From IMG/VR virus record IMGVR_UViG_3300048625_000250, positions 1-44,107 of that record: DNA of 44,107 nt. The stretch is one strand, 5' to 3'. The stretch is from a virus. How positions within the stretch are numbered: the stretch's first letter is position 1; every line of letters starts with the position of its first letter. Of the stretch, positions 12,904-44,107 are shown piece by piece. The notes below the pieces were generated by a model. The model had not been told where the DNA came from. It was given only the letters and a program-made list of their open reading frames with translations, and did not search any database. Position numbers and translations under genes: made by a program.

Positions 12904-13269
12904 ATGCAAACAGTACACGGAAACGTTCCATCTAAATCTAATTGTTATCAAATCGTACAGATTCGAGACAAGTCGGGCAAAACAATTCCATCATTAGCAA
13001 AAGCGGGTTCGCTTAAGGCATACGAAAAATCATTTTATTTACAAGCAGGAGTTTACAGAGGTCGCAATATCGACGGGCTTTTTGAATTCGAGATAGACGT
13101 TTATTATCCGTCAAATCGCTCTGATTTAGATAACAGTCTAAAGGTAGTTTTAGACTGCTTACAACACATAAAAGCCATAAAAAACGACAATAATTGTGTA
13201 AAGATCGTAGCACGAAAATTCGTCGACAAGACAAATCCTAGAATAGAATTTCAAATCAAAACAATATAA
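12904..13269 (+). CDS. rusA: Holliday-junction resolvase RusA
   Basis: 121 residues from ATG 12904, the family's usual length; a TTG at 12865 would add 13 residues from within the leader hairpin. The catalytic aspartates D74, D76 and D95 and K80 have exactly the spacing of E. coli RusA D70, D72, D91 and K76 (NRSDLDNSLK then IKNDNNCVK), and the end NPRIEFQI is typical. As a dimer it cuts Holliday junctions made during phage recombination and clears branches before packaging. Works with Bet and SSB of this genome. Confidence 0.92.
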   Translation: MQTVHGNVPSKSNCYQIVQIRDKSGKTIPSLAKAGSLKAYEKSFYLQAGVYRGRNIDGLFEFEIDVYYPSNRSDLDNSLKVVLDCLQHIKAIKNDNNCVKIVARKFVDKTNPRIEFQIKTI

Positions 13270-13270
13270 A

Positions 13271-13582
13271 ATGCAAGTATTAAAAATCACAATCGCAAAT
13301 CAACTATCAACGTTTATTGCAGAAGGTTCAGAAGTAGAAATGTTTATTCCGATGGACAAGGTATCAGCTATTTTTCATTCAAAAGATGATTTAGCAGTAG
13401 TTTTAGTAGGGGATAAGCAATATAAGGGTATGCTGGAAATTTTAGAGCAAAACATCGTTTCTTTTATTGAGACAGAAACGTATTCGCATCAGGAATCGGC
13501 ATTAACAAAAGCTGAGTTAGAAGCATCTAAACAAGATTACGAATCAGAAGGAATTAGCCCACTTTTAAAAGCAAACGACTAA
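13271..13582 (+). CDS. Small acidic hypothetical protein
   Basis: 103 residues; beta-rich first half (VLKITIANQLSTFIAEGSEVEMFIPMDKVSAIF) and an acidic helical tail. Starts one base after rusA and overlaps the next start by one base. Unknown. Confidence 0.75.
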   Translation: MQVLKITIANQLSTFIAEGSEVEMFIPMDKVSAIFHSKDDLAVVLVGDKQYKGMLEILEQNIVSFIETETYSHQESALTKAELEASKQDYESEGISPLLKAND

Positions 13583-13800
13583 TGGAGCAAATAGCAAGAT
13601 TTACCCCACATTTACGCACTAGCCGTCGCAGAATGAATCGACCTATTGCTAGTAATCAGTCAAAGTTTATTCCTCAAAAAGGTAGAATTTTGCAGACTTA
13701 TTCTGAGGTTCAGGAATTGCGTAATAAGCGAAAAGTAAAAGCAAGAAGAATAGGCTTGTTACAGAAGATTGCAAGAAAAATTCAAAGGATTTTTTCTTAA
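13582..13800 (+). CDS. Small very basic protein
   Basis: 72 residues with about a quarter Arg/Lys (TSRRRMNRP, RNKRKVKARRIG, KIARKIQRIF), probably binding nucleic acid. Last gene before the tRNA pair; the first tRNA starts six bases after its stop. Unknown family. Confidence 0.68.
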   Translation: MEQIARFTPHLRTSRRRMNRPIASNQSKFIPQKGRILQTYSEVQELRNKRKVKARRIGLLQKIARKIQRIFS

Positions 13801-13806
13801 GGTATT

Positions 13807-13876
13807 GCGGGGAGGACAAATGGTAAGTCGATGGTCTCATAAGCCATAGAAGGTAGTTCAATTCTACCCCCACGCA
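13807..13876 (+). tRNA. tRNA with CAT anticodon (Met or Ile2), somewhat irregular
   Basis: D arm GAC/GTC with a GG-containing loop, anticodon arm ATGGT-CTCATAA-GCCAT (CAT at 13838-13840), and a perfect T arm GGTAG-TTCAATT-CTACC. The acceptor stem GCGGGGA/CCCACGC has two mismatches (positions 4 and 7), and only one base stands between acceptor and D stem. It may be functional or decaying. CAT could mean elongator Met or lysidine-modified Ile2; the sequence cannot decide. Confidence 0.6.
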
Positions 13877-13885
13877 ACAAAATAA

Positions 13886-13957
13886 GGTCGGTTGCTAGAG
13901 TGGCTTATAGGGTGGTCCGCAAAACCATTTACAACGGTTCGAATCCGTTACTGACCT
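13886..13957 (+). tRNA. tRNA-Cys (GCA)
   Basis: Complete cloverleaf: acceptor GGTCGGT/ACTGACC (one G.T), D arm CTA/TAG, anticodon arm GTGGT-CCGCAAA-ACCAT with GCA at 13919-13921, T arm AACGG-TTCGAAT-CCGTT. The base before the anticodon (position 33) is C instead of the nearly universal T. CCA is not encoded. It would supply cysteine, a frequent residue in this phage's virion proteins. Confidence 0.78.
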
Positions 13958-13976
13958 CAAAATAAACACTACAACA

Positions 13977-14261
13977 ATGATGAATTTAGAACAAGCAAAA
14001 TTATTTATTGAAACATCAGAATGGATATTTGCTAAAACATATGCTCAAACCGCTCCGCACGAATATACCTTAATGGTTAATGCAGATTTAGAATCTTATA
14101 ATGCTTTTTGCAAATTTATTAATTCGAATTTAGTAAAAGAGCCATTTTATAAGACATGGTTTTATTATTGCTACATCGGAGAATACAAGTATTGGACGAT
14201 GGAAAAAGTAGGCGAACAACCACATCTAATTAATAGAGCTAGAATCGAAAATAAATACTAA
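13977..14261 (+). CDS. Conserved-type hypothetical protein heading the modification island
   Basis: 94 residues with the pattern FAKTYAQTAPHEYTLMVN ... FYYCYIGEYKYWTME..GEQPHLINRARIE. I recall proteins with this FAKTxxxxPHxYTL and YKYWTM/LINR pattern from many bacteria and phages without known function. Three bases separate its stop from the glycosyltransferase ATG or less, so it belongs to the same operon. Position right after the tRNA-Cys. Confidence 0.75.
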   Translation: MMNLEQAKLFIETSEWIFAKTYAQTAPHEYTLMVNADLESYNAFCKFINSNLVKEPFYKTWFYYCYIGEYKYWTMEKVGEQPHLINRARIENKY

Positions 14262-14262
14262 T

Positions 14263-14961
14263 ATGATTTGCGTACAAAACCATTATTCAAGGAATACAAA
14301 TGACCTTGAAAAGCGTATAATTGAAACATCAGATGGATTTGATTATAAAATTTTTACGGATTCAACGGACTATTACAAAGACAGAAGATCGCCATATCGA
14401 TATATGGGGATAGCTCAAAATTTTCTTAATATGATGAGGGAAAAAACCGACAACCCATATAAGATTATTATTCACGATGATGTTTCTATTCACAAAAATC
14501 TTTTTAAAAACATAAGGTATGTAATGCCTTATTCAGATGCAGGATTAACGTGTTTTTACAATCCAACAAACAATTTTTATAAAAATGCTTTTGAAAAGAA
14601 TTTTAGTGTAGTCGCTTCGTATTCTAAATTTTGGATGCAATGTGTTGCAATAAAAACGGAATGGGGTTATGAATTTGCAGAATGGATAGATAAAAACACT
14701 ATTGTAGGTCATTTATGTGAAGACCAAATGATAAGCACATATTTAGGAATTACAAATCAATTAGCAAAAATTGTTATTCCATCATTTGTTCAGCACGAAG
14801 GTTATGACAAAAGTATATTTAAAAATCCTGCATCTATTCAAGGAAATAAAAGGAATTCATTTTCATACGATCCAGATTTTGATCCTAAATCAATAGATTG
14901 GGCTTATCAATTTGCAAATCCATTAATAGATAAAACAAAATTAATTCATAATACAATTTAA
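14263..14961 (+). CDS. Predicted GT-A-fold glycosyltransferase
   Basis: 232 residues. YKIIIHDDVSIHKNLF (H71-D72-D73) looks like the metal-binding DxD-type motif of GT-A glycosyltransferases; later SKFWMQCVAIKTEWGYEFAEW and GHLCEDQMISTYL carry the usual acidic residues, and VIPSFVQHEGYDKSIF has the terminal His common in these enzymes. Sugar donor and acceptor unknown. Being directly upstream of a DNA methyltransferase and a Mom-like gene, it could glycosylate a modified base; a protein or surface-sugar target is also possible. Confidence 0.72.
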   Translation: MICVQNHYSRNTNDLEKRIIETSDGFDYKIFTDSTDYYKDRRSPYRYMGIAQNFLNMMREKTDNPYKIIIHDDVSIHKNLFKNIRYVMPYSDAGLTCFYNPTNNFYKNAFEKNFSVVASYSKFWMQCVAIKTEWGYEFAEWIDKNTIVGHLCEDQMISTYLGITNQLAKIVIPSFVQHEGYDKSIFKNPASIQGNKRNSFSYDPDFDPKSIDWAYQFANPLIDKTKLIHNTI

Positions 14962-14962
14962 T

Positions 14963-15499
14963 ATGAACAAGGCAGAAAACAGAGACATTATGTCGTTTCA
15001 AGCATTTCCAGAGTATGATATTATTTGGTGCGATCCACCTTGGGAGGATAAGATGGTTAAGTATTTTCAGACCTTAAATCATAAGCAAACTGGTAAGGTT
15101 GTAGAAAATAATATCAATGGAATTCTCGAGAAACTATTTTTATTAGCAAATAATCAAAAGCCAATTGTAGTCGAGTATTCTATTAAAGGAAGCGAACTTG
15201 TAATTGAATATGCTAAGAAACACGGTCATACGCTTACGCAGACGGTAACGGCTATTCAGGATAATGACCTAAAATCATATTTGCTGGTTTTTAACACAGA
15301 TGTAAGATTAGAACAAGGGTTGCGCGGTTACTTAAACACAACAGAAGGTGTAAGAAAGCTAGGAGCTAAATTAGTATTTGATCCATTTGCAGGGATGGGT
15401 CGCACGGCAAAAGCCGTGTTATTAGCAGGTGCATCTTATCACGGTTCTGAATTAAACGAAGCACGTTACAAAAAGCTATGCAAGATTTTATCAGTATAG
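14963..15499 (+). CDS. DNA (adenine-N6 or cytosine-N4) methyltransferase, small
   Basis: 178 residues. Motif IV DPPW (D24-W27) comes first and the AdoMet-binding motif I DPFAGMGRT (140-148) last, the order of beta-class amino-methyltransferases. The region between (LKSYLLVF, FLLANNQKPIVVEY) is short, with little room for a target-recognition domain, so specificity may come from a partner such as the ParB-type proteins encoded downstream. The 3' end overlaps the Mom-like gene by 22 bases. Could be an orphan protective methylase or the first step of a hypermodification. Confidence 0.83.
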   Translation: MNKAENRDIMSFQAFPEYDIIWCDPPWEDKMVKYFQTLNHKQTGKVVENNINGILEKLFLLANNQKPIVVEYSIKGSELVIEYAKKHGHTLTQTVTAIQDNDLKSYLLVFNTDVRLEQGLRGYLNTTEGVRKLGAKLVFDPFAGMGRTAKAVLLAGASYHGSELNEARYKKLCKILSV

Positions 15500-15867
15500 A
15501 GCCTATTAGTCTCGATTTAATCCGTCAGTATATTGCGCAGACTAAACGCGAAGGGATGGCGGGGTATTCGGAAAAAGCGGATTATTACGGTGCATTTTTT
15601 AATGGGGAATTAGCTGGATTTACATCGATTCAGTATTATGGGAATCAAAAAGTAAAATTTAACAATCACTATGTATTCCGAAATTTTAGAGGAAGGGGTG
15701 TTTTTAAAGAAATGTTTGCTTTTTCGCTTCAAAAAATAATAACAGAAGGGTATAAGACAATTATTGCATCGTGTACATCTATGAGTCTAAATTATTATAG
15801 AAAACACGGTGCAGTTGTTACTAAGTACCATAAGATTTGTACAGACGTAATAATTAAACTAACCTAA
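15478..15867 (+). CDS. GNAT-fold transferase, possibly Mom-like DNA modification enzyme
   Basis: 129 residues. RNFRGRGVFKEMF (68-80) fits the acyl-CoA-binding motif A of GNAT enzymes; the end (IIASCTSMSLNYYRKHGAVV) fits motif B. The small size, the lack of a clear peptide-type partner and the coupling to a DNA methyltransferase (22-base overlap) recall phage Mu Mom, a GNAT relative that modifies adenine N6. Plain acetylation of a protein or small molecule remains possible. The next gene starts directly after its stop. Confidence 0.75.
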   Translation: MQDFISIEPISLDLIRQYIAQTKREGMAGYSEKADYYGAFFNGELAGFTSIQYYGNQKVKFNNHYVFRNFRGRGVFKEMFAFSLQKIITEGYKTIIASCTSMSLNYYRKHGAVVTKYHKICTDVIIKLT

Positions 15868-17037
15868 ATGGCAGAGCAAATATATTATTTTAAGGATAAC
15901 GTCTATGAAGCAAGTTTAAAACGAATCAGAAGGATTTTTGATGAATTTGATAATGTTGTTGTAGGTTTTAGCGGAGGCAAAGATTCGACGTGTACACTCA
16001 ATTTGGCATTAAAGGTTGCACATGAAAAAGGACGTATTCCTTTAGCGGTAATGTTTGTCGATCAGGAAGCCGAATGGCAGGCTACAATTGACTATGTTAA
16101 GACGATAATGTACCGAGACGATGTAAAACCTTATTGGATTCAAGCCCCCTTTAAAATCACAAATTCGACGTCAGCAGATAGCGATCATTTAATGGCTTGG
16201 GGCGAAGGAGAAAATTGGATTAGAGAAAAAGATCCAATTGCAATAAAGAAAAACAATTACAATACGGCTAAAGGTACATCGCACTTAGATGAATTTTATT
16301 CGTTTTTCCCAAAATTCTTTGCACACGAGTTTAAGGGTAAGAAATCTGCATATCTTTCGGGTGTAAGAGCAGAAGAATCGCCTAACAGACGAATGGCTTT
16401 GACGGGTAGTGCGACCTATAAGGACATTACCTGGGGCAAGGTTTTAGATGCAAAGCAAGAACACTATACATTCTACCCTCTTTACGATTGGTCATATACC
16501 GATATTTGGAAGGCTATTCACGAAAACGGATGGGAGTATTGCAAGGTTTACGACCTTATGTATCAACACGGTTATCCAGTAAGAGATATGCGAGTTTCTA
16601 ACCTGCACCACGAAACGGCAGTAAAACATCTATTTTTTTTGCAAGAGATCGAGATTGACACCTATAACAAATTAACCCAACGATTGAAGGGTATTTCGAC
16701 TGCTGGAAAATTAGGGGAATCAGATTTCTTTGTAAAAGACTTACCATTTATGTTTTCTGATTGGAAGGAATACCGTGATTTCCTAGTAGAGAAACTTATT
16801 ACCGATGAACAACGTCCCGTATTCGAAAAGCGATTTAAAGCAATGGATGAAAAATACGCTGATATGGATAACCTTAAAATTTTGCATAAGACACAAGTGC
16901 AATCCGTAGTTATTAATGATTTCGGTTTCGTAAAACTTGCGAACTGGGAGACGAATCCTGCGGTAAACTCTTGGAGACGATGGAAACGGGGAGATAAAAT
17001 TGACGAATCATTGCCAAACCCATATATCAAACGATAA
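15868..17037 (+). CDS. PAPS-reductase-fold protein with DUF3440, IbrA-like
   Basis: 389 residues. The PP-loop SGGKDS (35-40) is the ATP-binding motif of PAPS reductases and tRNA thiolases; the following VMFVDQEAEWQAT and YLSGVRAEESPNRR are typical of the IbrA/DUF3440 group, which is normally ~400 residues. IbrA and IbrB were first described as regulators of Ig-binding genes in E. coli; their chemistry is not settled. The stop overlaps the start of the IbrB-like gene (TAATG), so both are made together. A role in sulfur- or adenylation-based nucleic-acid modification is inferred. Confidence 0.88.
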   Translation: MAEQIYYFKDNVYEASLKRIRRIFDEFDNVVVGFSGGKDSTCTLNLALKVAHEKGRIPLAVMFVDQEAEWQATIDYVKTIMYRDDVKPYWIQAPFKITNSTSADSDHLMAWGEGENWIREKDPIAIKKNNYNTAKGTSHLDEFYSFFPKFFAHEFKGKKSAYLSGVRAEESPNRRMALTGSATYKDITWGKVLDAKQEHYTFYPLYDWSYTDIWKAIHENGWEYCKVYDLMYQHGYPVRDMRVSNLHHETAVKHLFFLQEIEIDTYNKLTQRLKGISTAGKLGESDFFVKDLPFMFSDWKEYRDFLVEKLITDEQRPVFEKRFKAMDEKYADMDNLKILHKTQVQSVVINDFGFVKLANWETNPAVNSWRRWKRGDKIDESLPNPYIKR

Positions 17038-17684
17038 TGATAAAAGACCAAATTTTAGAAGCGTTCGGCAAAGCCGAAAATAAGATAGAATTTCTTTGTG
17101 AAATCAGAGAGTTCTTACATACTTTGTCTCCGCTTAATACGCAACCCGTAGACTTAATCAAATGGGTAGATATTAACAAGGTAACTGCAAACGACTACAA
17201 CCCGAATTCAGTAGCTAAAAATGAAATGAAGCTACTTTACACGTCGATCCTCCACGACGGTTATACACAACCCGTAGTTACCGTGTATGACAAAGAAAAA
17301 GATATGTATGTAATTGTAGATGGATTTCACCGATTCTTAACGTGTAAGTCGAATCAAGATATTAGAGACCGTAATTATGGATATTTACCAGTTGTTGTTA
17401 TCAATAAAGACATCAATGATAGAATGGCATCTACTGTTCGACACAACAGAGCAAGAGGAAAACACGCGGTAGGATCGATGTCAAGTATGGTTTTTGAGAT
17501 GCTAGAAAACGGATGGGCAGACGATCAGATTTGTGCAGAGTTAGGAATGGAAGCAGAGGAATTAATTCGCCTAAAACATATTACGGGATTCTCAAAGCTA
17601 TTCGAAAACACAGAGTACAAAAAGTCTTGGGAGACCGAAAAGCAAGTAAAGATTAGAATGGAGTATAACAAAAAACAAAAATAA
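17037..17684 (+). CDS. ParB-domain protein, IbrB-like
   Basis: 215 residues with a ParB/sulfiredoxin-type N-terminal domain: DVYVIVDGFHRFLTC-like core (VIVDGFHRFLTCK) and TVRHNRARGKHAVGSMSSMVFEML, followed by the DQICAELGMEAEELIRLKHITGFSKLFE stretch that characterises IbrB. Partner of the IbrA-like protein by order and overlap. ParB-type domains bind or cut DNA or hydrolyse nucleotides; which applies here is unknown. Five bases or fewer separate it from the second ParB gene. Confidence 0.87.
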   Translation: MIKDQILEAFGKAENKIEFLCEIREFLHTLSPLNTQPVDLIKWVDINKVTANDYNPNSVAKNEMKLLYTSILHDGYTQPVVTVYDKEKDMYVIVDGFHRFLTCKSNQDIRDRNYGYLPVVVINKDINDRMASTVRHNRARGKHAVGSMSSMVFEMLENGWADDQICAELGMEAEELIRLKHITGFSKLFENTEYKKSWETEKQVKIRMEYNKKQK

Positions 17685-17685
17685 G

Positions 17686-18231
17686 ATGGAAGTAGAAATG
17701 CTAGACATACGGATGATTCGTCCGTATCATAGAAATCCTAGAAAAAACGAAAAAGCAGTACAAGCGGTTAAGCAATCAATCGTAGACTATGGATTTAATA
17801 GTCCAATCGTAGTCGATAAGAAGTATGTTATTATTGCAGGACATACGCGTTACAAAGCGTGTTTAGAATTAAAAAAGCAGAAAGTACCGTGTGTTGTTTT
17901 AGACATCGATGAAAAAAAAGCAAAAGCATATCGTATTGCAGATAACAAGACGTCAGAACTTGCTGAGTGGGATATGGATAACTTAATTCCTGAATTGCGA
18001 GAGCTATCCGAAAGCATCGACGATTTACAGATTTACTTTAAAAATCTAAGCATCGATGATTTAATTCAGGAGTCGGTAGGACAGAGTCATTTTAAGCCCG
18101 TTACGCAGGAGCAAATTGACGCTAAGGGCGAATCACTAGGGAGCGCATACGATAACGTATCTGTGCAAGCGGAAACACTTTTGGAGGTAATCTGTCCACA
18201 TTGCGGAGAGTCGTTTCAGATAAAAAAGTAG
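17686..18231 (+). CDS. ParB-like nuclease-domain protein with C-terminal CxxC, lacking a methylase part
   Basis: 181 residues. Residues ~5-100 match the ParB-like domain that usually heads phage DNA methylases: MIRPYHRNPRKNEKAVQAVKQSI, VIIAGHTRYKACLEL, YRIADNKTSELAEWD. The methylase half is absent; instead the protein ends with ICPHCGESFQI, half a zinc ribbon. The separate small methyltransferase encoded at 14963 may supply the missing activity. Alternatively it aids terminase, whose genes follow at once. Confidence 0.85.
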   Translation: MEVEMLDIRMIRPYHRNPRKNEKAVQAVKQSIVDYGFNSPIVVDKKYVIIAGHTRYKACLELKKQKVPCVVLDIDEKKAKAYRIADNKTSELAEWDMDNLIPELRELSESIDDLQIYFKNLSIDDLIQESVGQSHFKPVTQEQIDAKGESLGSAYDNVSVQAETLLEVICPHCGESFQIKK

Positions 18232-18254
18232 TAATTCATTAATGTGAAATTATT

Positions 18255-18644
18255 GTGGAAAAGAAATACGCAAGAGGAAAACACCCAAATAGCCAAAAGG
18301 CACTAACACCCGTCAAAAAAGGTCAGGTATTAAATCCCTATGGACAACCTCGAAAATATGTTTCTACACTAATAAAAGACGGCTACAAAAAGGCTGAGGT
18401 AAACGATACGATTCAGGCTTTAATTTCTATGAATGTAGAAGAAATCAAAGAGGTATTGACTAATGATAAGGCTACTATCCTAGAAAAGACGGTTGCCTCC
18501 GCTTTAATAAAGTCAATTAGCCGTGGCGATCTTTCATCTATTGAGTCGTTAATTAATCGTGTGTACGGTAAACCTAAAGACCACGTTGAAACGAGTGGAA
18601 CGCAGGAAATTAGGATTATAAGGACGAATGCAAGTAGAACTTAA
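18255..18644 (+). CDS. terS: Small terminase subunit candidate
   Basis: 129 residues from a GTG start; no ATG is available in the short gap. The front KKGQVLNPYGQPRKYVS resembles the GNPxGRP element of DUF5681-type proteins that precede terminases, followed by helices. It would recognise the packaging site and present DNA to the large subunit. Overlaps the large terminase gene by 17 bases, the usual arrangement. Identity is by position and pattern. Confidence 0.75.
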   Translation: MEKKYARGKHPNSQKALTPVKKGQVLNPYGQPRKYVSTLIKDGYKKAEVNDTIQALISMNVEEIKEVLTNDKATILEKTVASALIKSISRGDLSSIESLINRVYGKPKDHVETSGTQEIRIIRTNASRT

Positions 18645-19896
18645 TCAACTTCACGAAGGTCAGCAACATATCATAGACAATCGGAAACGGTTTAATGTGG
18701 TATGTTGTGGACGTCGTTTCGGTAAGACGGCTATGGCGGTCGAGTTAATCTTAGATGATGAGCAAGATAACGGTGCACTAAAGGGTCATAAGATTGCCTA
18801 TATGGCACCGTCTTACAAGATGCTAGAAGAAGTTTGGCTTGAATTACTATACCGTTGCAGGGACATCTTAAAAAGCAAGAATGAGTCTGCTAAACGGATC
18901 GTATTAGTGACGGGCGGTACAATAGACTTTTGGTCGATGGATAATATCGATTCAATTCGTGGTAGAAAATACAAACGTGTTATTTTGGATGAGGCTTCTA
19001 TTCTAAATAGCAAGAAGTTAAAAGATATTTGGGAGCAGTCTATTAGACCACTCTTAACTGACCTGAAAGGCGATGCTTATTTCCTCTCTACCCCCAAGGG
19101 GAAAAAGCATTACTTTCGGGAGCTAGCAGATAATTACAAGAAGCACGGTAAGTCTTGGGCATTCTTTCAGATGCCTACATTATCAAATCCTTTTATCGAC
19201 CCCGCAGAAGTCGAGGAAGCACGAATGATGTTGCCTCCTGTAGTCTTTGCACAAGAGTATGAAGCCGTATTTACTGATATGGTTTCAGATAACCTATTTA
19301 TTCAAACATTCTCAATTGAAAAGCACGTATCAAAAGAGCCTATTGCTTATAATCCATCGTTGCCTACCTACATATCGATTGACTTTAACGTATCACCACT
19401 ATGTTGTATTGTTGTACAGATGGATCTACATTTTAGGTCGATACACGTGATTAACGAGTACAGACAGATGGATTCGGACGTTTATGAACTTTGCGAGTGG
19501 ATTAAGTCAAACTACGATTCACGCAGAATCTTTATTACGGGAGATGCGGCAGGATTTAACCGTTCAGCCTATTCCCGTGCGCATCAGTCTGCATTTCAAA
19601 TTATTCAGACTGAACTAAACCTAAATTGGTCGCAGGTAAAAACACCTAGAGGTAAGCCCGCTGGATATGTAAACAATAAACGTCTTCTAGGCAACGCATT
19701 ATTCGCAAAACATCCTAACCTATTACTAAGCAACTGTCCGTGGCTAGTAGAGGATTTAACCAACGTAGAATGCGACTCTATGGGTCAAATGAATAAGACC
19801 CGTGACTCTACTCAGTCACACTTACTAGATTCGTTACTTGACTTTTTCTTTTCGTGTTGTCAGGACGCGGTTAAGATGCCATCTATGCGCGGTTAG
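18628..19896 (+). CDS. terL: Terminase large subunit
   Basis: 422 residues, the typical size. Walker A GRRFGKT (28-34) and Walker B VILDEA mark the packaging ATPase; the C-terminal RNase-H-fold nuclease shows the acidic residues in YISIDFNV, FITGDAAG and HLLDSLLDFFF. It pumps DNA into the prohead and cuts concatemers. Placed directly after the small subunit and before tail genes, not before the portal as in most siphoviruses. Confidence 0.96.
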   Translation: MQVELNQLHEGQQHIIDNRKRFNVVCCGRRFGKTAMAVELILDDEQDNGALKGHKIAYMAPSYKMLEEVWLELLYRCRDILKSKNESAKRIVLVTGGTIDFWSMDNIDSIRGRKYKRVILDEASILNSKKLKDIWEQSIRPLLTDLKGDAYFLSTPKGKKHYFRELADNYKKHGKSWAFFQMPTLSNPFIDPAEVEEARMMLPPVVFAQEYEAVFTDMVSDNLFIQTFSIEKHVSKEPIAYNPSLPTYISIDFNVSPLCCIVVQMDLHFRSIHVINEYRQMDSDVYELCEWIKSNYDSRRIFITGDAAGFNRSAYSRAHQSAFQIIQTELNLNWSQVKTPRGKPAGYVNNKRLLGNALFAKHPNLLLSNCPWLVEDLTNVECDSMGQMNKTRDSTQSHLLDSLLDFFFSCCQDAVKMPSMRG

Positions 19897-19971
19897 TGAA
19901 TTGTCTAAAACGACAGTCCATAAGTAATTCAAAATCAGTTAAATTTACGATTATTAAACCCCCAAATTAAT

Positions 19972-20544
19972 ATGTGGAACGAAAAGACTGTTTCAGATAA
20001 GTCGATAACTTACATCAATACAAATACGGGAGAGGAATCGTCCGCATCGTTAGTGTATAACCATCCCGAATTAGGCAGATTCTATATGTTTGATTCGGTT
20101 ATGACTATGCCTTTTCAGCGGAAATACGTATTTGACCTTATTCAGCAGAATGAGAAAATCGGGATCGAGAAAAAGGAGCTATTGACGCACTTAGAATCGA
20201 TTAAGGAGTTCCTTAATGCAGGCAAAGGTAATGACGCTTACGGTACGATTATGTACATCGAATCGAAGCTAAAAGATGGATGGGATTATCAAAAGAGTAG
20301 CTTACTAATTTGTGCTTTGCTAGTAGTCCAAGAGGGCGAAAACATAAACGGGTTTAATCAATCGGAGGCAGAGGAAAAGATTAACAAATGGGCAGTAGAT
20401 TTAACGATGCTCAGTTTTTTTTTGAACTTTGCTCAACTAAGAATAAACAGTTTGATGAACTTTGTAAACAGAAGTTCAAGCACATTTTCGGCGGTGGTAT
20501 CCCAATCAACGGAGAACCAACCACAACCGTCATCGGAAAGTTAA
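19972..20544 (+). CDS. Tail assembly chaperone, G-like short form
   Basis: 190 residues, located directly before the tape measure gene. The last ~40 codons overlap a second frame (to 20717) that is reached by a -1 step at the slippery heptamer T TTT TTT (20415-20421) in the codons AGT TTT TTT. This is the lambda G / G-T arrangement: G coats the tape measure and the rarer G-T fusion recruits tail-tube protein. Without the shift the product ends in a Ser/Gln-rich tail (QSTENQPQPSSES). No direct sequence family recognised; the call is from architecture. Confidence 0.8.
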   Translation: MWNEKTVSDKSITYINTNTGEESSASLVYNHPELGRFYMFDSVMTMPFQRKYVFDLIQQNEKIGIEKKELLTHLESIKEFLNAGKGNDAYGTIMYIESKLKDGWDYQKSSLLICALLVVQEGENINGFNQSEAEEKINKWAVDLTMLSFFLNFAQLRINSLMNFVNRSSSTFSAVVSQSTENQPQPSSES

Positions 20545-40140: not shown

Positions 40141-43100
40141 ATGGCGAATACTGATATAGTAACTAGAGAAGACATTGGTAATGGATTAGCAGTAAATGCT
40201 AACAAGCTAGAAGCTGATTTTACCAAGGTTGCTAGTAAAAACGATCTTCTTACAAAAGCAGATTTAGTAAATGGAAAAGTACCTGCATCTCAATTGCCAT
40301 CCTTTATTGATGAGATTCAGGAGTATCCATCTTTAGCCACTTTTCCTATTACTGGTCAATCTGACATTCTTTATTTGGCTTTAGATACAAATAAATTATA
40401 TCGCTGGTCAGGAACTGCATATGTTGATCTAAGTGCTTTAGCGGGTATGCCCGATTTCGCTTTAAATGCAAACGTAGTTCATAAAACATTAGACGAAACG
40501 ATCGACGGAATTAAGTCTTTCAATTCCCCTATTTATGCACAAGACGGTGTATCATTAAAAAACAACAATGCTCCGTTATTACAAACTGGTAGAACAATAT
40601 TGTATGCAAACGCATCGCAGTTCGGCTTCCTTAATGGAAACGATAAGGGTGCAATTTTTATGTACAATAATCCGAATAGCTTGGTATATGTATTACCAAA
40701 TGAAACGGGTACTTTGGCTTTGTTATCAGATCTTGCTCCTTATTTGACGATCGCTACGGCTTCTAGTACATATCAAACTTTAGCAAATCTTTCTCAGAAC
40801 TTAAATGCTTCTGCTAGTAAATACCCATCTGTTGATGCGGTAAATGCTGGATTAGCAACAAAATATAATAACCCAACTGGAACAGTTTCTCAGTACATTC
40901 GTGGAGATGGTTCGATTGCTAATTTTCCTTTTATCCCTACATTGATTTGGGGCAATATCGGTGGAACTTTAGCAAATCAAAATGACTTGCAGTCTGCTTT
41001 AGATGGCAAGTTTAATAACCCGACTGGAACTACAAATCAGTATGTTCGAGGTGATGGTTCAATTGCTACATTCCCTGCACCTTATGGTTTATTGCCTACT
41101 GGAGGAGATGCAGGTCAGATTCTTACTAAGGTTGATGGCACAGATTACAATACTGCGTGGATGGATAACTACGCATTATGGACGAGTGTTATTCGCCATG
41201 AGATTAAGGCAGGAGAAGCTATAACAAAAGGTTCAGCAGTTTATATTAGTCCTATTCAAGATGGAACTAATATGATTGTAGTTAAGGCTGATTATTCTCA
41301 GGAATCTACATCTAGCAAAACTTTAGGTTTAGTGATGCAGTCGTTATCAAATAATCAATTTGGTCAGGTTGTAACTGAGGGTTTGCTAGGAAACCTAAAT
41401 ACAATAGGTGCAAATCAAGGAGACCCAGTTTGGTTAGGTGCAAATGGTAGCTTAATCTATGGTTTAGCAAATAAGCCAGTAGCTCCAAATCACTTAGTGT
41501 TTATTGGTATTGTTACTCGTGTAAATGCAAATAACGGAGAGATATTTGTTAAGGTTCAGAATGGTTTTGAACTAGAAGAATTGCATAATGTTAAGATTGT
41601 AAACAAGGCTAACAATGAGATTTTAGCTTATGAGCAATCTACTGGACTTTGGAAAAATAAGGCAATAAATGACCTAATTGGTTATGTGCCTGCAAACAAT
41701 AACGATGTTCTTCACTTATCAGGTAATGAAACAGTAGAAGGTAATAAGACCTTTACTGGAGCTACTGCTATTGCAGGCTTATTTATTGACGAAGCATTCG
41801 GTTATGCAAACATCGCTACTCACACACAATTAAAAGCTCACGCAGATTATTTTCATTTTAATGCTAGTTCGAATAACAAAGGTGCTAAATTCACATACGG
41901 CACAGCAGGTCAAAGAGTTTATGGTTTACCTATTACCGATGGTATTTTAGCACTAACATCTGATATTCCTACACTTGGTAGTTTAGGCGGTGTTCCTGCA
42001 ACTAGAACAATTTCTATCAATGGAACTACTTATGACCTGAGTGCAAATCGTGTTTGGAATCTAAGTGCAAGTGAAATTGCAGTAGCTTTAGGTTATACAC
42101 CTTTGGCAGTAGAATCTGACCCTATTTTTGTTGCTTCGCCTGCATACGGAATTACAAGTTTATTAATTGGTAATTGGAATACCGCATACGGATGGGGGAA
42201 TCACGCAGGATTGTATTCTTTGCTAGGACACACTCATACTTTTGCATCGTTAACATCAAAGCCAACTACTTTAGCAGGTTACGGAATTACAGATTCCGCA
42301 ACATCTGCACAAGGAGCAAATGCTGACACTGCTTATGGTTGGGGAAATCACGCAAACGCAGGGTATTTACTAGCATCTGTTGCATCGACTTTATATCAAT
42401 CAAAGGATGCAGATTTAACTGCAATTGCAGGTTTAGCAGGAGCTACTGGTTTACTTAGAAAAACGGCATTAGATACTTGGGCATTAGATACAAATGCCTA
42501 CTTGACTGGTATTACATCAGGTCAGGTAACTGGTGCATTGGGTTACACTCCAGTTCCGATTACAAGAACAATTACAATTAACGGAACTGCATATGATTTA
42601 TCTGCGGATAGAGCTTGGACTATTGCATCAGGTGTTACATCGTTTAACACTAGAACTGGAGCAATTGTACTTAGTTCTGCGGATGTTACTGGAGCATTAG
42701 GATTCACTCCGTACAATTCATCAAATCCAAGTGGTTATATTTCAGGCATTACATCTTTGATGGTAACAAATGCTTTAGGATTTACCCCATACAACGCTAC
42801 AAACCCTGCGGGCTATATTACAGCATCTGCTCTTAGTCCTTATTTGCCACTTGCAGGTGGTAATATGACTGGAAATCTAAGACTTGTAAGTATTAGCGGA
42901 AATGACCAAATGGTAGAAAATACCTATGGAGCATATTTGCACTTAGGAGGTTGGGCAGTAGGTCGTACAGATGCAACTGCGGTTTTAGTAAATACTGCAT
43001 ACAGAGCTGATTACGCTGATGCACTTTTCGATATGAACATATCGAGATTTACAAACAACTCAGGTTATGTAACATCTTCAGGTTCGGTAAACTATGCAAG

Positions 43101-44107
43101 TTCCGCTGGTTCTGCATCTCAGGTAACTATCAATTATAATAACGACTCGAATTCCACATATCAAATGTTATGGGGTTCAGGTAATTCAGTTTACGGAACT
43201 GCTGGTGTCTATATAAATCCAAATTCAGATACTATTTATGCTTATGGTTATAGAGGGTCAGGAAATGTAGGAGGAACTGGAGAGGCTTCTTGGCATCCTG
43301 CTGGTATTTATTCAGGAGGAACTCAGTGGCTATATGGTGATTTGTACAGAAATCAAGCAAATACTTATGGTCAAGGACTTATTTATCAAGATGGTAATTA
43401 TGGGTATGGATTAATTGGATTATATGCAAGTACAAGATACCAAGCTATTTTTGCTATGGGCAACGCATATAGAATTCCAATAGATGGTACTTCACTTGGT
43501 AGTTTATATGGTTTAGCTTGGTCTCATCCAAATGCAGGTGGTCAAGCTGGATATCTAAATGACCATGGTTTAATTATTGGAGTAGCAGGATTAACTTATG
43601 CTGCTATTTCATCTAACATTTGGACAAGAGGTAGCTTAAATGCAAATACAAACGTAAATGCAACTAATGGTTATTTCTATGGTTCAGGAAGCATTCGTTG
43701 TGGAGATATGTGGGGTGGTGCAGGTTTGTATCGTCCTAGTGGCTCAATGGTATTTGGTATTGAAAATAGCGACTGGATTTTTTCAAAAGGTGCAGTAACT
43801 CAGGCTTATTTTGGTGGAGGAGATGGTAATCTTTGGATGCGTTGGGCAGGAGACTGGTTATCTAATTTATTAGGTGCAAAAGCTACTCACAGAGGAGAAG
43901 GTTCAAACTTTGTTGACTACTCTCGTTATGTTTATAACAACGGAGCATACTCAGGTTCAGGTTGGATTGAGCCATCTGATTTAGGTGTTAGATATGCAAA
44001 TTCAGCAGGTACTGCAAGCAGTTGCTCAGGTAGAGCTGAACTTTTAAATGGATGGGGAGGATGTTATAATAATAGTCACCCTGGATATGGCTTAAGAGCA
44101 TGGTATG
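40141..44107 (+). CDS. Tail fibre protein, N-terminal and middle part (continues at base 128)
   Basis: Open from ATG 40141 to the window end with no stop; joined to 128-1011 it makes 1616 residues. The N-terminal ~60 residues (MANTDIVTREDIGNGLAVNANKLEADF) likely bind the tail. The shaft is made of repeats typical of long fibres: ITSGQVTGALGYTP / ALGFTPYN, TAYGWGNHA (twice), NNPTGT.. QY.RGDGSIA (twice), LTSKPTTLAGYGITD. The distal Gly/Tyr/Trp-rich part leads into the S74 chaperone (see 1-1011). Acts in adsorption to the host surface. Confidence 0.93.
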   Translation, partial: MANTDIVTREDIGNGLAVNANKLEADFTKVASKNDLLTKADLVNGKVPASQLPSFIDEIQEYPSLATFPITGQSDILYLALDTNKLYRWSGTAYVDLSALAGMPDFALNANVVHKTLDETIDGIKSFNSPIYAQDGVSLKNNNAPLLQTGRTILYANASQFGFLNGNDKGAIFMYNNPNSLVYVLPNETGTLALLSDLAPYLTIATASSTYQTLANLSQNLNASASKYPSVDAVNAGLATKYNNPTGTVSQYIRGDGSIANFPFIPTLIWGNIGGTLANQNDLQSALDGKFNNPTGTTNQYVRGDGSIATFPAPYGLLPTGGDAGQILTKVDGTDYNTAWMDNYALWTSVIRHEIKAGEAITKGSAVYISPIQDGTNMIVVKADYSQESTSSKTLGLVMQSLSNNQFGQVVTEGLLGNLNTIGANQGDPVWLGANGSLIYGLANKPVAPNHLVFIGIVTRVNANNGEIFVKVQNGFELEELHNVKIVNKANNEILAYEQSTGLWKNKAINDLIGYVPANNNDVLHLSGNETVEGNKTFTGATAIAGLFIDEAFGYANIATHTQLKAHADYFHFNASSNNKGAKFTYGTAGQRVYGLPITDGILALTSDIPTLGSLGGVPATRTISINGTTYDLSANRVWNLSASEIAVALGYTPLAVESDPIFVASPAYGITSLLIGNWNTAYGWGNHAGLYSLLGHTHTFASLTSKPTTLAGYGITDSATSAQGANADTAYGWGNHANAGYLLASVASTLYQSKDADLTAIAGLAGATGLLRKTALDTWALDTNAYLTGITSGQVTGALGYTPVPITRTITINGTAYDLSADRAWTIASGVTSFNTRTGAIVLSSADVTGALGFTPYNSSNPSGYISGITSLMVTNALGFTPYNATNPAGYITASALSPYLPLAGGNMTGNLRLVSISGNDQMVENTYGAYLHLGGWAVGRTDATAVLVNTAYRADYADALFDMNISRFTNNSGYVTSSGSVNYASSAGSASQVTINYNNDSNSTYQMLWGSGNSVYGTAGVYINPNSDTIYAYGYRGSGNVGGTGEASWHPAGIYSGGTQWLYGDLYRNQANTYGQGLIYQDGNYGYGLIGLYASTRYQAIFAMGNAYRIPIDGTSLGSLYGLAWSHPNAGGQAGYLNDHGLIIGVAGLTYAAISSNIWTRGSLNANTNVNATNGYFYGSGSIRCGDMWGGAGLYRPSGSMVFGIENSDWIFSKGAVTQAYFGGGDGNLWMRWAGDWLSNLLGAKATHRGEGSNFVDYSRYVYNNGAYSGSGWIEPSDLGVRYANSAGTASSCSGRAELLNGWGGCYNNSHPGYGLRAWY
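43981..44107. repeat. 127-bp terminal direct repeat, right copy
   Basis: Exact duplicate of bases 1-127. It should be collapsed when the genome is circularised. The reading frame that opens at 40141 passes through it and continues at base 128 of the window. Confidence 0.9.

Follow-up and report, generated by a model that had tools for sequence, protein, structure and literature searches.

A modular phage gene cassette with an IbrA-ParB core and an unnamed small domain, a candidate system for modification of phage DNA

The window, the whole stretch of viral DNA that was analysed (44,107 nucleotides), contains seven open reading frames (ORFs) packed on the plus strand between 13977 and 18231 (Table 1). 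The spacings between them are 1, 1, -22, 0, -1 and 1 bases. A further 23 bases separate the last from a terminase small-subunit-like (terS-like) ORF, which overlaps the gene of the large subunit (terL). An earlier note on this DNA had described seven packed genes ending at terminase, directly before the packaging genes; the ORF coordinates and spacings bear this out, and the position is also common in relatives. A tRNA-Cys has its 3' end 18 bases upstream of the first ORF. An Rfam search of 13000-20000 found tRNAs only, and a search for DNA repeats around the cassette gave nothing usable.

Table 1. Genes of the cassette and its immediate context in the window.
Feature	Coordinates	Strand	Remarks
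SMALL ('YKYWTM' domain), 94 aa	13977..14261	+	core; no named family; motif FAK[TS]-PH-YKYW[TS]M-NR
GT-A-fold glycosyltransferase (GT), 232 aa	14263..14961	+	tailoring slot; structure model
Predicted small beta-class (permuted) N6/N4-type methyltransferase (MT), 178 aa	14963..15499	+	Pfam N6_N4_Mtase; DPPW then DPFAGMG
GNAT acyltransferase, 129 aa	15478..15867	+	tailoring slot; Pfam PF00583 1e-5
IbrA-type PP-loop ATP pyrophosphatase, 389 aa	15868..17037	+	core; PHROG 2302 3.3e-90
ParB1, IbrB-type ParB-domain protein, 215 aa	17037..17684	+	core; PHROG 2159 3.5e-73
ParB2, second ParB-domain protein, 181 aa, C-terminal CPxC	17686..18231	+	PF02195 4.7e-11; PHROG 620 4.1e-49
Terminase small-subunit-like ORF (context)	18255..18644	+	DUF5681 6.6e-4, under cut-off; directly before terL
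Terminase large subunit (context)	18628..19896	+	PHROG 2 2.2e-41
tRNA-Cys (GCA) (context, outside conserved unit)	13886..13958	+	ARAGORN, Rfam

The first protein, which we call SMALL, has no family in Pfam or PHROG (E 0.1) and none in NCBIfam, in agreement with the earlier note, where it was "unrecognised". Residues A19, P27, H28, Y72, W73 and N86 are invariant in an alignment of 54 rows. Its AlphaFold model (pLDDT 93.2) resembles solved folds weakly, with a best Foldseek E of 0.66 and a best superposition of Z 3.6 (rmsd 3.9, 72 aligned). No PDB fold stands out, which in itself proves nothing, and since there is no clear solved-fold match the role of SMALL is a guess. One relative without a name was found in BFVD (A0A516LRX9, E 2.2e-7). 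Among proteins of the viral loci, redundancy included, SMALL is fused to a class-I methyltransferase in nine and to an AdoMet decarboxylase (AdoMet_dc) domain in four, while one protein joins ParB2 to a methyltransferase.

At E 0.1, neither Pfam nor PHROG has a family for the second ORF. Its model (pLDDT 89.3) gives 28 PDB matches at E <=0.001, with glycosyltransferase folds on top, and superposes on GnT-I with Z 15.1 (rmsd 3.9, 206 aligned); the mimivirus protein R655 is matched by Foldseek at 1.4e-6. As D33, D73 and D154 are invariant in 21 rows, model and acidic residues together support the GT-A-type fold proposed earlier.

The third protein reaches E 1.2e-5 with Pfam N6_N4_Mtase (25.8 bits, just under the cut-off of 26.7), and its motif IV, DPPW at 24-27, precedes motif I, DPFAGMG at 140-146. 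This is the permuted order of the beta class to which it had been assigned, and by its sequence the 178-aa protein is DNA-methyltransferase-like, of the N6/N4 type. The alignment retains P26 in 51/51, D140 in 50/51 and G144 in 51/51 rows; DPPW, SPPY or DPPY occurs in 50 of 67 profile hits and none of them in 17, fragments being included. The alignment scan was unspecific, with at least nine relatives among 600 stretches, and eight of nine loci lacked the core. Scans with single GT, MT and GNAT sequences gave 0, 2 and 1 relatives, and tblastn of the same window proteins against 50,697 phage records gave nothing at E 0.01, 0.001 and 0.01, respectively.

The GNAT family profile matches solved N-acetyltransferases (best 2.4e-13). 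The earlier note had called this protein Mom-like and of Mom size. Mom of phage Mu is likewise a phage-encoded enzyme of the GNAT superfamily, but it has 241 aa against 129 aa here; with Mom relatives fetched and six of them aligned, hhalign gave a probability of 6.1% over 65 columns, and BLASTP an E of 0.73. The analogy was dropped on these grounds.

The fifth protein matches Pfam PAPS_reduct (2.8e-17) and, just under the cut-off of 25 bits, DUF3440 (2.2e-5, 24.7 bits), so that with its PHROG match the PP-loop/DUF3440 identity given earlier stands. S35, G37, K38, D39 and S40 are present in 77/77 IbrA rows. There is no conserved cysteine, the top Cys column reaching 44/77 rows, which speaks against the thiolation that the earlier note had considered. 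Both ParB assignments hold (Table 1). ParB1 scores 21.8 bits with Pfam ParB_N, below the cut-off of 26.3, and keeps D95, G96, H98, R99 and R135-G141 in 59/59 rows. ParB2 keeps C170, P171 and C173 in 60/63 rows. Its matches to methyltransferase families of phages and of restriction-modification systems (PHROG 498 1.7e-35, PADLOC 9.7e-24) fall in the N-terminal part of these, presumably their ParB half.

A scan with SMALL only, which requires short exact peptides, provided 80 viral loci, the best 80 of 92 relatives. Five of them had no SMALL ORF called and were left out of the non-redundant set, although all five hold IbrA. The remaining set of 51 was defined by a 90% SMALL identity cut and no tree, so its statistics ignore kinship, and ORF calls are longest ORFs, with errors in GC-rich records. 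IbrA lies on the same strand as SMALL in 49/51 loci, and thus the conserved co-occurrence, whose absence the earlier note had named among its refuting conditions, was found. The two are at most three ORFs apart in 44 of the 49, and a ParB gene lies at most three ORFs downstream of IbrA in 44/46. Where at least 3 kb was available downstream, terL was within seven ORFs in 23/30 loci, by a profile built from the window's kind that counts other terminases as misses.

A variable tailoring slot lies mostly between SMALL and IbrA. When the stretch from SMALL to IbrA is extended by one ORF at each end, 46/49 cassettes contain one or more slot enzymes, in 14 combinations, and 3/49 contain no recognised one. 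The kinds are beta-class methyltransferase, GT-A glycosyltransferase, GNAT, AdoMet-decarboxylase-like protein and class-I methyltransferase. Slot contents differ even between close relatives: loci L003 and L004, with IbrA 98.2% and SMALL 88% identical, carry MT type 2 versus GT plus MT type 1, and L003 also has an upstream ParB2 without match in L004. In L017 and L018 (IbrA 97.7% identical) an MT stands against a GT. In L048, L072, L073 and L083 one slot protein resembles, on inspection by eye, a cupin or 2OG oxygenase (HxD...H); of two tested in Pfam, one gave no match and the other only Cupin_2 at 0.15, and the kind was not counted.

Considering the window plus the 51 representatives, and MTs within four ORFs of IbrA, a GT lies directly upstream of MT type 1, the subtype of the window MT, in 5/5 loci and of other MTs in 0/17 (Fisher p 3.8e-5, with thresholds set after viewing the first table). 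That first table, with unrelated MTs mixed in, gave GT in 7/8 vs 3/18 (p 0.0013).

SMALL is also found in bacteria. Genomes of Bacteroidales, Segatella and Prevotella among them, have it fused to or beside GmrSD_N, the fusions scoring 1.6e-29, 1.6e-20 and 2.2e-20. By profile, GmrSD-type genes are present in 12 of the 43 host SMALL loci and number 19; the Pfam density in the genomes of 28 of the 43 loci would predict about 0.3, an even spread being assumed. The profile was built from six proteins of these same loci, each confirmed directly by Pfam, and the other 13 of the 19 rest on it, though Pfam matches lie at coordinates that, by calculation, fit genes in L119, L120, L123, L130 and L148. 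By profile, no GmrSD_N-type protein occurs in the viral loci, and IbrA is absent from 39/43 host SMALL loci; therefore SMALL is not tied to IbrA chemistry. The cassette and GmrSD/DUF262 type IV restriction thus have the SMALL domain in common, GmrSD being host-side and the cassette viral. GmrS is described as ParB-like in a passage of PMC5512222.

Among cultured phages, Microbacterium phage Leaf carries the gene set. In a set of 11 proteins (annotated CDS) its E-values are 1.7e-15 for the GT family, 1.6e-7 for GNAT, 8e-108 for IbrA and 5.3e-11/4.9e-10 for a SMALL+MT protein; SMALL alone gives 1.2e-8 in the whole record. After these come three genes for ParB proteins, one for a DNA-binding protein and, at the record start, terminase. 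Leaf was found through the IbrA query only. Against the 50,697 phage records, tblastn gave nothing at E 0.1 with the window SMALL and nothing at 0.01 with a second member; for these queries the Leaf SMALL is too diverged. The Leaf SMALL+MT protein itself is matched in 5 of these records, and the Microbacterium phages Dewdrop, Rasputia and Hendrix are likely further carriers. IbrA occurs in 215 of the 50,697, with Flavobacterium phage examples 38-42% identical. When eight records were searched whole, seven lacked a match to SMALL.

IbrA/IbrB (YbdN/YbdM-type) pairs of phages and enterobacteria likewise consist of a PAPS-reductase-like DUF3440 protein beside a ParB-domain protein. Unlike the cassette, the pairs in the six isolates examined other than Leaf lack SMALL and slot enzymes. 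The bare combination of IbrA and ParB is old and widely distributed, and as cultured-phage IbrA, where tested, is mostly without SMALL, the pair has a job of its own. Published tables label such genes IbrA/IbrB, a regulatory label (co-activators of prophage gene expression); a passage of PMC9068703 leaves the role of YbdNM itself open, and we found no biochemical role for IbrA in print.

With moderate confidence, and judging from sequence, we favour the reading that these genes, found in distantly related phages, form a modular cassette built on IbrA, ParB and SMALL, with which a phage would hypermodify its own DNA after replication. The joint modification role put forward in the earlier note survives in that the genes form one conserved unit whose enzyme mix fits nucleic-acid modification best, and loses its Mom and thiolation parts; that DNA is the substrate, we infer. 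The fixed core would be IbrA, ParB1 (often with a second ParB) and SMALL. IbrA may use ATP to adenylate the nucleic acid at one position, probably the carbonyl of a base, where a nucleophilic group would then be joined. The ParB proteins would carry the complex to DNA, and SMALL might read the base, either as substrate or as product. The slot enzymes, whose genes mostly stand between those of SMALL and IbrA, would set the attached group or its finishing: GT-A glycosyltransferase, beta-class methyltransferase and GNAT in the window phage, and an AdoMet-decarboxylase-like protein, a class-I methyltransferase, another glycosyltransferase or subsets in relatives. The product could hide packaged DNA from restriction, and a slot swap would alter the disguise.

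It seems unlikely, but deserves weight, that the target is instead a modified nucleotide, a cofactor, a protein or a surface sugar, serving superinfection exclusion or counter-defence signalling. IbrA would then activate a small substrate, GT, GNAT, MT and decarboxylase would decorate it, and the ParB NTPases would sense nucleotides. The slot enzymes indeed belong to broad classes: the GT-A model is similar to protein/sugar glycosyltransferases, AdoMet_dc is a metabolite enzyme, and the class-I MT partner has weak matches, all under cut-off and mostly to small-molecule MTs. Amidoligase genes are present in 7/51 and GGCT in 6/51 loci. However, the permuted beta-class MT belongs to a DNA-MT family, ParB2 is akin to methyltransferase-linked ParB domains, and both the nearby terminase and the fusion of SMALL to GmrSD proteins point to DNA.

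A lower probability goes to a mosaic of morons, with IbrA-ParB as a regulator pair and the slot as a place where accessory genes settle that have nothing to do with each other. The regulatory label and the isolates having the bare pair agree with it, but SMALL predicts IbrA in nearly all loci, few enzyme classes supply the slot genes, GT accompanies MT type 1 every time, and two slot enzymes are fused to SMALL.

Modification of tRNA or other RNA, with IbrA acting like TilS or TtcA and the others finishing a tRNA base, is improbable. IbrA does have relatives among these enzymes (TilS 0.0027, TtcA 0.052), and the window has its tRNA-Cys beside SMALL. This adjacency was rejected as a cassette feature: the 51 representative loci hold one tRNA, over 5 kb from SMALL, and the first 15 loci (some from the same contigs) hold none. 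The context is also one of ParB, DNA-type MT and terminase.

It is very improbable that the cassette adds sulfur to DNA in a phosphorothioate-like way, IbrA taking the part of DndC and ParB that of DndB: Dnd, Ssp and BREX type 4 share the PP-loop ATP pyrophosphatase superfamily with IbrA (PADLOC matches DndC 4.7e-8, BrxP 3e-7, SspD 8.2e-4) and, in sections of PMC10853773, Dnd has a ParB-superfamily partner, but the matches are confined to the N-terminal PP-loop part (residues 12-91), those sections describe a cysteine dyad in DndC besides its Fe-S cluster, where the cassette IbrA has no conserved cysteines, and no DndA (desulfurase), DndD or DndE was found among the seven proteins by Pfam and PADLOC. 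A host desulfurase could replace DndA only.

Step-wise base tailoring is known from the thymine/5hmU hypermodification pathways and from T4-like glucosylated hmC, where glycosyltransferases act as a late step. The marker enzymes of these pathways are a hydroxymethylating synthase, a 5hmdU kinase and a PLP enzyme; Pfam finds none of them among the seven cassette proteins, and the cassette differs by its IbrA-ParB-SMALL core. We found no literature report of a modified nucleoside for a cassette-bearing phage. The arrangement and the SMALL domain can fairly be called a new system.

A bolder version of the DNA-modification reading is possible but doubtful. The cassettes would represent an undescribed hypermodification class, of IbrA-ParB with a possibly new-fold SMALL reader, in which swappable slot enzymes set the product (sugar, methyl, acyl, or amine/aminopropyl via the AdoMet-decarboxylase-like member). 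Bacterial GmrSD-type nucleases may have adopted SMALL to cut such DNA, so that writer and eater would share a reader.

The cassette suggests a concrete role for IbrA, and is testable since Leaf is cultured and carries the set. An unnamed domain is common to modification-type genes of phages and type IV restriction-type genes of bacteria. If the reading is right, it would add a route to new DNA chemistries that is modular and works by gene swaps, together with new modification-dependent nucleases.

The window is a virus record of 44,107 bases. The cassette in it consists of seven ORFs spaced by 1, 1, -22, 0, -1 and 1 bases, and a terS-like ORF followed by terL starts 23 bases past the block. 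Five of the proteins were assigned by family searches: a methyltransferase of the beta class (MT), a GNAT protein, IbrA (of the PP-loop PAPS-reductase/DUF3440 kind) and the ParB proteins ParB1 and ParB2. The first protein, of 94 aminoacids (SMALL), and the glycosyltransferase (GT) have no Pfam or PHROGs match at E 0.1. The GT has a predicted GT-A domain (model pLDDT 89.3), with similarity of the model to mimivirus R655 (Foldseek 1.4e-6) and to GnT-I (Z 15.1, rmsd 3.9, 206 residues), and three aspartates are invariant among 21 relatives. As for the GNAT, called Mom-like in the earlier note, its family profile matches a solved N-acetyltransferase (2.4e-13), and by profile it is an ordinary GNAT and not Mom. 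Ten other proteins of the window were compared with PHROGs, and the six matches (ssDNA-annealing protein, SSB, primase/helicase, tape measure, metallophosphoesterase and endolysin) indicate a tailed phage. The low GC over the GT, MT and GNAT stretch could reflect a separate origin of these genes.

Coordinates and gene positions of features in the window and related loci (E-values of Leaf genes 156-159 were calculated for a set of 11 proteins)
Source	Position	Feature	Observation
Window	13807-13876, 13886-13957	Tandem tRNA genes	Two by Rfam; ARAGORN finds the second (tRNA-Cys) only
Window	13977-18231 (+)	Seven-gene cassette	
Window	14001-16000	GT, MT, GNAT	32.3% GC, second lowest among 22 2-kb windows
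Window	2 kb after 16000	IbrA, ParB1	37.8% GC
Window	40141-44106	1,322-codon ORF	Open at the right end of the record; explains an apparently ORF-poor 4 kb
L004 (related locus)	81-515	CxxCxxCC-type protein (PF03692 2.2e-7)	Directly upstream of SMALL; a ParB gene at that place in related locus L003
L111 (Microbacterium phage Bush)	2469-3621	Mom relative (tblastn 2e-7)	Overlaps a ParB-like gene; independent ParB-modification pair
Leaf (Microbacterium phage)	Genes 154, 155	Annotated glycosyltransferases	154: Gly_transf_sug 2.6e-8
Leaf	Gene 156	GT family of the window	1.7e-15
Leaf	Gene 157	GNAT	1.6e-7
Leaf	Gene 158	SMALL+class-I MT	5.3e-11 and 4.9e-10
Leaf	Gene 159	IbrA	8e-108

The arrangement of seven genes before the terminase, as described in the earlier note, is real and conserved. 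It is more widespread and more variable than could be seen there. In a close relative (L002), the order MT-GNAT-IbrA-ParB1-ParB2-terS-terL is kept, with identities to the window of 96% for IbrA, 98% for ParB1, 96% for ParB2, 99% for terS and 92% for terL, while the MT (a fragment) and GNAT reach just 77-78%. Distant relatives collected from IbrA retain SMALL, MT, often GT, one extra gene, IbrA and ParB1. The extra gene encodes either an HNH protein or an AdoMet-decarboxylase-like protein (PF02675 5.2e-12 and 1.1e-12). SMALL is present in 10 of the 13 loci collected this way; of the other three, L002 and L014 are truncated where their contigs stop, and in L013 the 650 bases upstream do not contain it.

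The test of the unit begun from SMALL alone covered the best 80 of 92 relatives. A SMALL profile match was obtained in 75 of these 80 loci, the other five being left out even though IbrA is present there too, and a 90% identity cut gave 51 non-redundant loci. IbrA is found in 49 of them, always on the same strand as SMALL (49/49), against a background rate of 215 phage records with an IbrA match at 1e-10 out of 50,697. The two exceptions are L020, with ParB and terL near SMALL, and L044. Between SMALL and IbrA there are no ORFs in 11 loci, one in 10, two in 18, three in 5 and more in 5. ParB2-type proteins occur in 47, ParB1-type in 41 and terL in 35 of the 51 loci. Downstream of IbrA, a ParB gene follows within three ORFs in 44 of 46 loci, and terL within seven in 23 of the 30 loci with enough sequence, using a profile built from the window-type terL. 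One locus (L016) has MT-GNAT on one strand and terL-terS-ParB2-ParB1-IbrA facing it on the other, which is either an inverted cassette or an assembly error.

Next, the enzymes between SMALL and IbrA vary. Counting this span plus one ORF on each side, at least one of MT, GNAT, GT, GT2, class-I MT or decarboxylase is present in 46 of 49 loci, in 14 combinations; no such enzyme is recognised in L027, L028 and L043. These enzymes are exchanged, since close relatives hold different ones. Loci L003 and L004 are 97-99% identical in decarboxylase, IbrA, ParB1 and terL (88% in SMALL), with an MT of type 2 in one and a GT plus an MT of type 1 in the other, and the upstream ParB2 of L003 has no counterpart in L004. 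Likewise, L017 and L018 are 91-98% identical in ParB2, SMALL, GNAT, IbrA, ParB1 and terL, with an MT between SMALL and GNAT in one and a GT in the other. A GT lies directly upstream of the window-type MT in 5 of 5 counted loci and of other MTs in 0 of 17 (p 3.8e-5, uncorrected for kinship and with thresholds chosen after a first MT/GT tabulation). Fusions tie SMALL to the exchangeable enzymes: counted with redundancy, nine proteins join SMALL and a class-I MT, and four a decarboxylase and SMALL. The decarboxylase-like proteins keep S-H-x-x-x-H plus a later Cys, which correspond to the serine used for processing and to the residues used for catalysis in SpeD.

Other genes were observed around the cassette. 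Amidoligase (PF12224 2.5e-34 in L033) and GGCT-like genes lie nearby, mostly on the opposite strand, in L033, L050, L051, L062, L065, L081, L085 and others; they may add another step, in which an amino acid is conjugated, or form a system of their own. A cupin-like protein of 167-177 aminoacids with an HxD...H pattern, found between GT and IbrA in L048, L072, L073 and L083, is possibly a 2OG-Fe(II) oxygenase. If so, its presence beside a GT would be reminiscent of how base J is made.

Among cultured phages, Leaf was located via IbrA. Its IbrA gene (159) is followed, continuing at the record start, by three genes for ParB proteins, one for a DNA-binding protein and the terminase. Relatives of Leaf gene 158 are present in Dewdrop, Rasputia and Hendrix. 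By profiles over the stretches viewed, IbrA-ParB occurs without SMALL or exchangeable enzymes in Flavobacterium phages 23T and VK42, Streptococcus CHPC1230, Fusobacterium phiFN37 and Pseudoalteromonas XCL1123. Mycobacterium Bernardo has the order ParB, two small genes, IbrA, ParB, terL. A whole-record search of eight phages for SMALL was positive in Leaf, with none in 23T, VK42, CHPC1230, phiFN37, XCL1123, Bernardo and Bush. In phiFN37 (L160), some 3 kb separate the IbrA-ParB pair from another ParB and from genes annotated as queuine tRNA-ribosyltransferase and queuosine precursor transporter, a set that hints at DNA modification by 7-deazaguanine.

Outside phages, 43 SMALL loci were found by scanning genomes of bacteria and archaea. 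IbrA is found by profile in four, whose gene content resembles that of prophages. A GmrSD-type gene is present in 12 of the 43. SMALL precedes GmrSD_N in a fusion in L121 and, by profile, L123, and comes last in fusions in L126 and L141; GmrSD genes adjoin it in L122 and L132 (GmrSD_C 4.3e-24 in the latter). Therefore SMALL is also a domain of host restriction-type proteins. GmrSD_N is widespread, with 24 of 28 SMALL-bearing genomes and 8 of 14 controls. In the 43 loci, 19 GmrSD-type genes were observed versus about 0.3 expected from genome density, using a profile seeded from the same loci; this profile had no match in any viral locus. Elsewhere SMALL has unrelated neighbours, such as a glycosyl hydrolase (L139) or DUF72 (L118). 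In a Prevotella MAG (L151), a SMALL+MT protein adjoins a ZacC-like defence gene (4.6e-251). The GmrSD association is a hint, not proof, that SMALL senses something on DNA. The SMALL structure model (pLDDT 93.2) was compared with solved structures and none stands out.

In terms of chemistry, the PP-loop residues S35, G37, K38, D39 and S40 of IbrA are kept in 77 of 77 aligned rows. PP-loop enzymes with such a motif adenylate carbonyls or phosphates (TilS, NadE, GuaA, TtcA). The same 77 rows contain no conserved cysteine, whereas DndC has an Fe-S cluster and a cysteine dyad (PMC10853773). Without a cysteine relay, IbrA is unlikely to transfer sulfur in the way of DndC, and the thiolation raised in the earlier note is equally unlikely. 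The motif and the missing relay lead us to propose that IbrA would adenylate the target, which a nucleophile would then attack, with the exchangeable enzymes making or finishing the attached group.

Titles, abstract starts and selected passages of related literature among the matches listed hold no description of the cassette, and an earlier one may exist. As a caution, Serratia phage eta was once believed to contain hypermodified guanine, but HPLC detected none (PMC3918226). The argument for DNA as the substrate is indirect, and comes from the DNA-type MT, the kinship of ParB2 to methyltransferase-linked ParB domains, the terminase context and the occurrence of SMALL with GmrSD. DNA hypermodification is the best reading of the function of the cassette, and one we modestly favour.
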